From a virus: a DNA stretch of 26,971 bases. Positions 2,656 to 3,555 of this stretch are shown piece after piece. Made by a program: the position numbers and the translations under genes. Position 1 is the first letter of the stretch, and the number at the start of each line of letters is the position of its first letter. The notes beneath the pieces are model-generated. The model had not been told where the DNA came from. It made no database searches and saw only the letters and a program-made list of their open reading frames with translations. The stretch covers positions 1 through 26,971 of the IMG/VR virus record IMGVR_UViG_3300034103_000262, one strand, 5' to 3'.

Positions 2656-3555
2656 ATGAAACATGGTTCACTATTTTCAGGCATCGGAGGCTTTGACCTT
2701 GCAGCCGAATGGATGGGATGGGAAAACGTATTTCACTGCGAGTGGAATGAATTTGGACAAAAAGTATTAAAATATTATTGGCCTAAAGCAATCAGTTATG
2801 AAGACATTACAAAAACAGACTTCTCTATTCACAGAGGAGAAATTGACATCCTCACCGGAGGATTCCCATGCCAGCCTTATTCAATGGCAGGAAAACGAAA
2901 AGGTAAAGAAGATGAACGCCACTTATGGCCAGAAATGCTTAGAGCAATTAGAGAAATTCAGCCACGTTGGGTTGTGGGCGAAAATGTTTTCGGCCTTGTT
3001 AATTGGTCAGGAGGGTTGGTTTTCCACGAGGTGCAAGCTGACTTGGAAGCTGCGGGGTACGAAGTTTGGCCGTATGTACTTCCAGCTGCAGCCGTTAACG
3101 CACCACACCGAAGAGATAGGGTTTGGTTTGTTGCCTACCGTAACTGCAATGGACTCAACCAATGCAACGGCAACGATGAAGAGCAGCCAGGTGAAGGATG
3201 GTTCAATGCACTCTGTAACGCTCACACGGGCAATGAGTATGGGGATGCTGCCGACACCGACAACGAGGGACGCAAATGGGATAGAGCATTCACCATCACA
3301 AAAGAACAAAAGCAGATTAGCACCGGATATAGGAACAATGTATCAAGAAACACATGGGAAAACTTCCCAACTCAATCCCCGATTTGTACTGGAAATGATG
3401 GGCTTTCCTCCCGACTGGACGGAATTACCTTTCCTAAGTGGAGAAACGAATCAATCAAATCAGCCGGAAACGCTATAGTACCACAGGTGGTTTTTCAGAT
3501 TTTTAAAAGTATTGAAGAATATTTATATTTGACCAATGAACGAACTAACACTTGA
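2656..3555 (+). CDS. dcm: DNA (cytosine-5) methyltransferase
   Basis: The 299-residue protein contains the ordered C5-methyltransferase motifs: motif I SLFSGIGGFD (5-14, SAM binding), motif IV GGFPCQPYS with catalytic Cys72, motif VI GENV (Glu109), motif VIII HRRDR (151-155) and motif X GNAIVP (271-276). It transfers a methyl group from SAM to cytosine C5 in DNA, most likely to shield phage DNA from host restriction. The region between motifs VIII and X (about 160-265), which should recognise the target, is polar and low in complexity. That same DNA also encodes a second protein in the +1 frame (2798-3478), which may limit how it can evolve. The symbol is used generically; the target sequence is unknown. 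Confidence 0.9.
   Translation: MKHGSLFSGIGGFDLAAEWMGWENVFHCEWNEFGQKVLKYYWPKAISYEDITKTDFSIHRGEIDILTGGFPCQPYSMAGKRKGKEDERHLWPEMLRAIREIQPRWVVGENVFGLVNWSGGLVFHEVQADLEAAGYEVWPYVLPAAAVNAPHRRDRVWFVAYRNCNGLNQCNGNDEEQPGEGWFNALCNAHTGNEYGDAADTDNEGRKWDRAFTITKEQKQISTGYRNNVSRNTWENFPTQSPICTGNDGLSSRLDGITFPKWRNESIKSAGNAIVPQVVFQIFKSIEEYLYLTNERTNT
2798..3478 (+). CDS. Overlapping-frame protein inside the cytosine methyltransferase gene
   Basis: A 226-codon ORF lies wholly inside the methyltransferase gene in the +1 frame. It reads like a real protein rather than a shadow: it has a Trp-containing STRCKLTWKLRGTKFGRMYF segment (about residues 76-95), repeated LPTxT motifs (GLLPTVTAMDSTN, GMLPTPTTRDANG) and a closing LNPRFVLEMMGFPPDWTELP block. 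From memory, sequences of this type recur in the same overlapping position in Bacteroidota phage methyltransferase genes, and LNPxFVxxxMGFPxxW also occurs in phage C5-methyltransferase C-terminal regions. A role as specificity or partner subunit of the enzyme is inference. It could also be a relic of a frame change. Confidence 0.6.
   Translation: MKTLQKQTSLFTEEKLTSSPEDSHASLIQWQENEKVKKMNATYGQKCLEQLEKFSHVGLWAKMFSALLIGQEGWFSTRCKLTWKLRGTKFGRMYFQLQPLTHHTEEIGFGLLPTVTAMDSTNATATMKSSQVKDGSMHSVTLTRAMSMGMLPTPTTRDANGIEHSPSQKNKSRLAPDIGTMYQETHGKTSQLNPRFVLEMMGFPPDWTELPFLSGETNQSNQPETL
3524..3531 (+). promoter_or_regulatory. Possible -7 promoter element before the spanin pair
   Basis: TATATTTG matches TAnnTTTG exactly. 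The position 19 bases upstream has TTTT instead of TTTG. The ATG of the 35-codon ORF is at 3536, so a transcript from here would be almost leaderless. The element lies inside the 3' end of the methyltransferase gene. Confidence 0.3.

Follow-up and report, generated by a model that had tools for sequence, protein, structure and literature searches.

A gene nested in the +1 frame of a phage C5-cytosine methyltransferase gene probably encodes the motif IX-bearing small subunit of the same enzyme

The 26,971-nucleotide viral sequence analysed here over its whole length (IMG/VR record IMGVR_UViG_3300034103_000262; the window) contains a predicted C5-cytosine methyltransferase gene (the outer frame, alpha) in which a second long reading frame (the inner frame, beta) is open in +1. 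The locus therefore raises the question of whether both frames encode proteins and, if so, what the inner protein does. Both frames lie exactly where a first-pass annotation had placed them (Table 1), both are coding and conserved, and it is highly probable that together they specify an orphan phage C5-cytosine methyltransferase built of two subunits, with the inner protein as the small one. The inner product is read as a partner subunit because the outer frame lacks motif IX, which is found in the inner frame, and because M.EcoHK31I is reported to be split in the same way.

Evidence for dual coding comes from comparison of related loci. IMG/VR was scanned with the inner frame and with the outer profile, each scan returning 80 loci, in collections that overlap and are partly redundant, so that these counts are not counts of independent events. 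The inner frame lies in +1 over the outer in 80/80 loci of the first set and keeps the same relative frame in all 80 viral loci of the second, for which the inner frame had not been selected. The same arrangement occurs in 80/80 loci found in bacterial genomes with the inner profile, mostly from Bacteroidota with a few from other phyla. The longest +1 open run is 277 codons as observed against a mean of 106 in synonymous-codon shuffles of the outer frame (78 loci), and the observed length was reached by 18 of 23,400 shuffles, while the +2 control frame showed no excess over chance. Divergence at fourfold sites of the outer frame is 0.593 upstream of the overlap, 0.315 within it and 0.628 downstream (63 non-redundant loci), is lower inside the overlap in 60/60 subsamples and is lowest, at 0.117, over 3376-3435, where LNPRFVLEMMGFPPDW is read in the inner frame. 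Where outer-synonymous differences are present, their effect on the inner frame is only a little more conservative than that of random differences.

Similarity among inner-frame homologues is in part a by-product, because conservation of the outer codons is enough by itself to make the +1 frames look alike; shuffled copies of the window keep 137 bits with the inner profile, and the real window scores 361 bits. Although this surviving part of the score would suit an inner open frame arising wholly from the codon composition and homology of the outer frame, such an origin is extremely improbable, being contradicted by the open-frame length, by the synonymous suppression and by inner-profile scores above all 200 shuffles in 9/9 sequences tested (the window, Lacticaseibacillus, Paenibacillus, Escherichia coli phage K1ind3, a Klebsiella plasmid record, Leptospira, Nostoc, the single-chain relative L282 and mycobacteriophage IrishSherpFalk, the last exceeding its shuffles only narrowly). 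A chance open frame or outer-homology by-product was accordingly rejected by the synonymous-shuffle and inner-profile score tests. Among the metagenomic loci, the outer frame is interrupted in L038, L046, L049, L056 and L060 and the inner frame in L068, which may reflect real decay or sequencing error. The first-pass annotation had named missing homologues, inner stop codons in close relatives and free synonymous variation of the outer frame as observations that would speak against an inner protein; instead, every sampled close relative has an inner homologue, inner stops are rare and outer synonymous sites are suppressed.

The outer frame matches Pfam DNA_methylase (6e-47) and PHROG_363 (4e-71), and its profile aligns motifs I-VIII of M.HhaI at 3.4e-29 with no large insertion. 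The S-adenosylmethionine (SAM) motif I, the PCQ motif IV, the ENV motif VI and the RxR motif VIII are all conserved in the outer alignment, and motif X is present. Judged by these motifs, the outer frame is a C5-cytosine methyltransferase, but the complete motif set ascribed to it at first does not hold: motif IX is absent and is encoded by the inner frame instead, so that the outer chain departs from the canonical single-chain order, in which motif IX stands between VIII and X on the same chain. The uninterrupted alignment to M.HhaI also bears on the nature of the inner gene. In ShiLan, an out-of-frame HNH gene lies inside a phage methylase gene (PMC11855218), and the inner frame could be imagined as a homing endonuclease hidden in the same manner. 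The ShiLan element, however, is a mobile nuclease-encoding insertion of patchy distribution, whereas the nested pair presents what appears to be a conserved subunit, occurring in every sampled close relative and giving no HNH or other nuclease match in Pfam, and a ShiLan-like origin is scarcely credible.

The assignment of motif IX to the inner frame was supported by pattern searches and profile comparisons. The strict motif IX pattern occurs in the +1 frame alone in 246 loci, in the main frame alone in 28 and in both frames in none; it is absent in 39 loci, most of which are resolved by a looser pattern in +1 or by truncation. In profile comparisons with L282, inner residues 142-209 align with residues 174-254 (E 1e-5, probability 82), outer residues 1-166 align with residues 1-161 and outer residues 263-281, containing motif X, align with the L282 motif X, while the inner and outer profiles gave no alignment to each other. 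A set of single-chain relatives, from mycobacteriophages and L282, has an equivalent LNPAFPEWMMGWPTGW segment in the main frame, with motif VIII before it and motif X after it, and the AlphaFold model of L282 (predicted local distance difference test (pLDDT) 69.5, predicted template modelling score 0.73) superposes on M.HhaI over its full length (Z 22, 221 residues). By these alignments, the beta segment is homologous to the VIII-X interval of the single-chain relatives and LNPRFVLEMMGFPPDW is motif IX.

The Cys/Trp/Arg-rich segment, the LPTxT blocks and the motif now assigned as IX, all noted in the first-pass annotation, were located in the inner frame. Its best-conserved parts are the W/C/R-rich segment, the LPTP blocks and LNPxFVxEMMGFPPDWTELPF, and G44, C47, W60, L68, G70, W74, S76, C79 and W83 are invariant in the inner alignment. 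PHROG_1008 matches the inner frame at 3.4e-23, as well as 50/50 aligned inner relatives, and its label ('DNA methyltransferase') is silent on the matching proteins being out-of-frame partners devoid of catalytic motifs; within one bacterial class, 13 of 369 genomes also gave a match to this family. Of 63 loci, 49 have an ATG at one or other of two neighbouring inner start positions, which is consistent with internal initiation.

In the proposed enzyme, alpha would bind SAM and perform catalysis through motifs I-VIII and X, and beta would be translated in the +1 frame from an internal ATG approximately 47 codons into alpha, contributing the W/C/R-rich domain, the LPTxT segments and motif IX. 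The two chains would assemble into an active heterodimer in which beta supplies the motif IX/target-recognition side of the small domain, with activity requiring beta, and the outer gene expressed alone would be expected to give an inactive enzyme. Beta may also set the DNA target, and the position and variable spacing of the LPTxT blocks suggest that they are part of the target-recognition region. The first-pass annotation had offered the inner protein as a specificity or partner subunit; the partner role is supported by the split of motif IX, whereas the specificity role is inferred only.

Several observations weigh against this two-subunit enzyme. Searches of PDB sequences with the inner profile gave no match, the AlphaFold model of the inner protein alone is poor (pLDDT 53) and was left out of the fold search, no clear Shine-Dalgarno sequence lies upstream of the inner ATG (such sequences are often missing in Bacteroidota), and a shorter +1 frame matching the inner N-terminal half occurs in some actinophage enzymes that carry motif IX in the main frame. 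The inner frame as a whole has no Pfam or NCBIfam match. A real nested gene with another job, such as a host-nuclease inhibitor or a methyltransferase regulator, would account for an N-terminal half that lacks homology to known domains in library and PDB sequence searches and that is apparently kept in some actinophages despite their main-frame motif IX. It would not account for the C-terminal part, which is the very motif IX missing from the outer frame and is found in only one frame per locus, and this alternative is therefore unlikely. Retention of the shorter +1 frame in actinophages implies that the N-terminal half probably does something besides carrying motif IX.

Another possibility is that ribosomal frameshifting from the outer into the inner frame yields one longer polypeptide, and thus two alternative C-termini. 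A common N-terminus followed by two C-terminal frames would permit this, and main-frame and split relatives do show both parts in differing arrangements. The frameshift product would nevertheless be devoid of motif X, and both the inner start region and the inner N-terminal half, which overlaps the outer catalytic domain, are conserved, so that frameshifting is very unlikely, more so than a nested gene with a different job.

A comparable division of motifs is known from M.EcoHK31I, a two-polypeptide C5-methyltransferase in which the large subunit carries motifs I-VIII and X and motif IX resides alone in the small polypeptide (PMC3404938). The phage pair has the same division of motifs between large and small chain, the two systems being likened by description only. 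They differ in that M.EcoHK31I is part of a restriction-modification system, while no cognate endonuclease is evident for the phage pair, and in that the predicted target domain of M.EcoHK31I is in the large subunit, while in the phage pair it is the small subunit that holds the LPTxT segment, which may belong to the target domain. Both M.EcoHK31I polypeptides are reportedly needed in vitro, and the small M.EcoHK31I gene reportedly lies nested in another frame of the large gene, as is the case in the phage locus. M.EaeI is another two-polypeptide C5-methyltransferase. The M.EcoHK31I sequence has been named as X82231 (PMC6174562); this sequence was not found in the collections searched, and a search for M.EcoHK31I through E. 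coli genomes returned 68 genomes, the four regions inspected being prophage-like. M.AquI is likewise a C5-methyltransferase on two polypeptides (alpha and beta), but it is divided within the variable region and its small subunit holds both IX and X.

The kind of enzyme is thus already known, since the M.EcoHK31I split has been reported and nested pairs are annotated in E. coli phage K1ind3 (ORF30, a C-specific methylase, and ORF29, 'Mte8-like') and in Paenibacillus phage Bloom (genes 56 and 57, both annotated as cytosine methyltransferase), and the suggestion that the inner frame might be undescribed has to be withdrawn. In the searchable literature, which includes few subscription papers, nothing on nested phage methyltransferase subunits was found beyond M.EcoHK31I and the ShiLan element, and no description of the breadth or evolutionary constraint of the nested pair was found. 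What is new here is the breadth of the pair in phages, the strength of the dual-coding evidence and the existence of relatives that read motif IX in the other frame. The expectation that the inner frame would be widespread in other Bacteroidota phages was borne out and exceeded, with similar nested pairs in phages or plasmids of Bacteroidota, Bacillota, Proteobacteria, Cyanobacteria and Spirochaetes. Few long genes lie nested in another gene on the same strand, and those that do are mostly young; this one is common to phages of many bacterial phyla and would divide one enzyme between two frames. In Porphyromonas phage L100 (1414-2442), the inner frame is annotated alone, as a hypothetical protein (1673-2287), and the outer methyltransferase frame is unannotated. 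Because annotation often covers one frame only, as in L100, many phage methyltransferases in databases probably stand there without their essential partner.

Related loci differ in the frame that carries the motif IX/LPTP segment. L282 reads motif IX in the main frame and still has LPTP and the inner N-terminal half in a nested +1 frame. In L264-like mycobacteriophages, LPTP and IX are both in the main frame, yet +1 stays open for about 180-190 codons; in L264-L270, codons 80-160 show little fourfold divergence (five loci, tentative), which suggests a retained nested protein in these single-chain methyltransferases. In Mycobacterium phage Wile (L093, 2059-3154), gp75 carries motifs I-VIII and the adjacent gp74, with an 11-base overlap, carries LPTP, IX and X, a pair closer to M.AquI than the nested pair is. 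In the actinophage loci L285, L289 and L292, the main frame stops short, with motif IX carried on in a different frame, for which a tandem split, decay and a frameshift are candidates.

The L282, L264-like and Wile arrangements imply that the reading frame of the motif IX/LPTP segment differed between lineages. A catalytic-domain tree, midpoint-rooted, with partly weak support and with incomplete motif labels, places the forms that have motif IX in the main frame at two or more separate points within the nested forms. It is tentatively proposed, at slightly less than even odds, that the motif IX/LPTxT segment moved more than once between overlapping frames, residing in a nested +1 frame in most of the lineages sampled, in the main frame in others (actinophages and L282) or in a tandem gene (Wile), with the order in the DNA unchanged. 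An equally tentative part of this proposal is that the inner N-terminal half is a separate and hitherto unnamed protein domain, general library scans having found no homology to any known domain. If the segment did move, the nested pair would represent a long-standing form of phage methyltransferase and the loci would provide a natural series for studying the origin and loss of overlapping genes; with nested, tandem and single-chain relatives at hand, the origin of the overlap is directly testable.

Table 1. Positions of the two overlapping reading frames and of their conserved parts in the window.
Feature	Coordinates	Strand	Remarks
Outer frame (alpha), predicted C5-cytosine methyltransferase, 299 amino acids	2656-3555	+	ATG 2656, stop 3553-3555
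Outer motif IV GGFPCQPYS, catalytic Cys	2857-2883	+	conserved in outer alignment
Outer motif VIII region APHRRDRVWFVA	3100-3135	+	outer alignment; M.HhaI-like part ends here
Outer motif X SAGNAIVPQV	3460-3489	+	outer alignment; pairs with motif X of single-chain relatives
Inner frame (beta), nested +1, 226 amino acids/codons	2798-3478	+	ATG 2798, stop 3476-3478
Inner W/C/R-rich segment, residues 44-97, overlapping outer catalytic-domain codons	2927-3088	+	inner alignment
Inner LPTVTAMD block, residues 112-119	3131-3154	+	inner alignment
Inner LPTPTTRD block, residues 151-158	3248-3271	+	inner alignment
Inner motif IX LNPRFVLEMMGFPPDW, residues 192-207	3371-3418	+	inner alignment, profile comparison, motif pattern by frame

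Upstream of the methyltransferase gene, the approximately 460 bases at 1818-2283 contain no long open reading frame (ORF) and gave no Rfam match at gathering thresholds, and near 2009-2041 they include a hairpin with a run of T after it. A small ORF at 2284-2643, which ends 12 bases upstream of the methyltransferase gene, has a GIY-YIG nuclease domain (Pfam, 1e-6) and is possibly a homing endonuclease.
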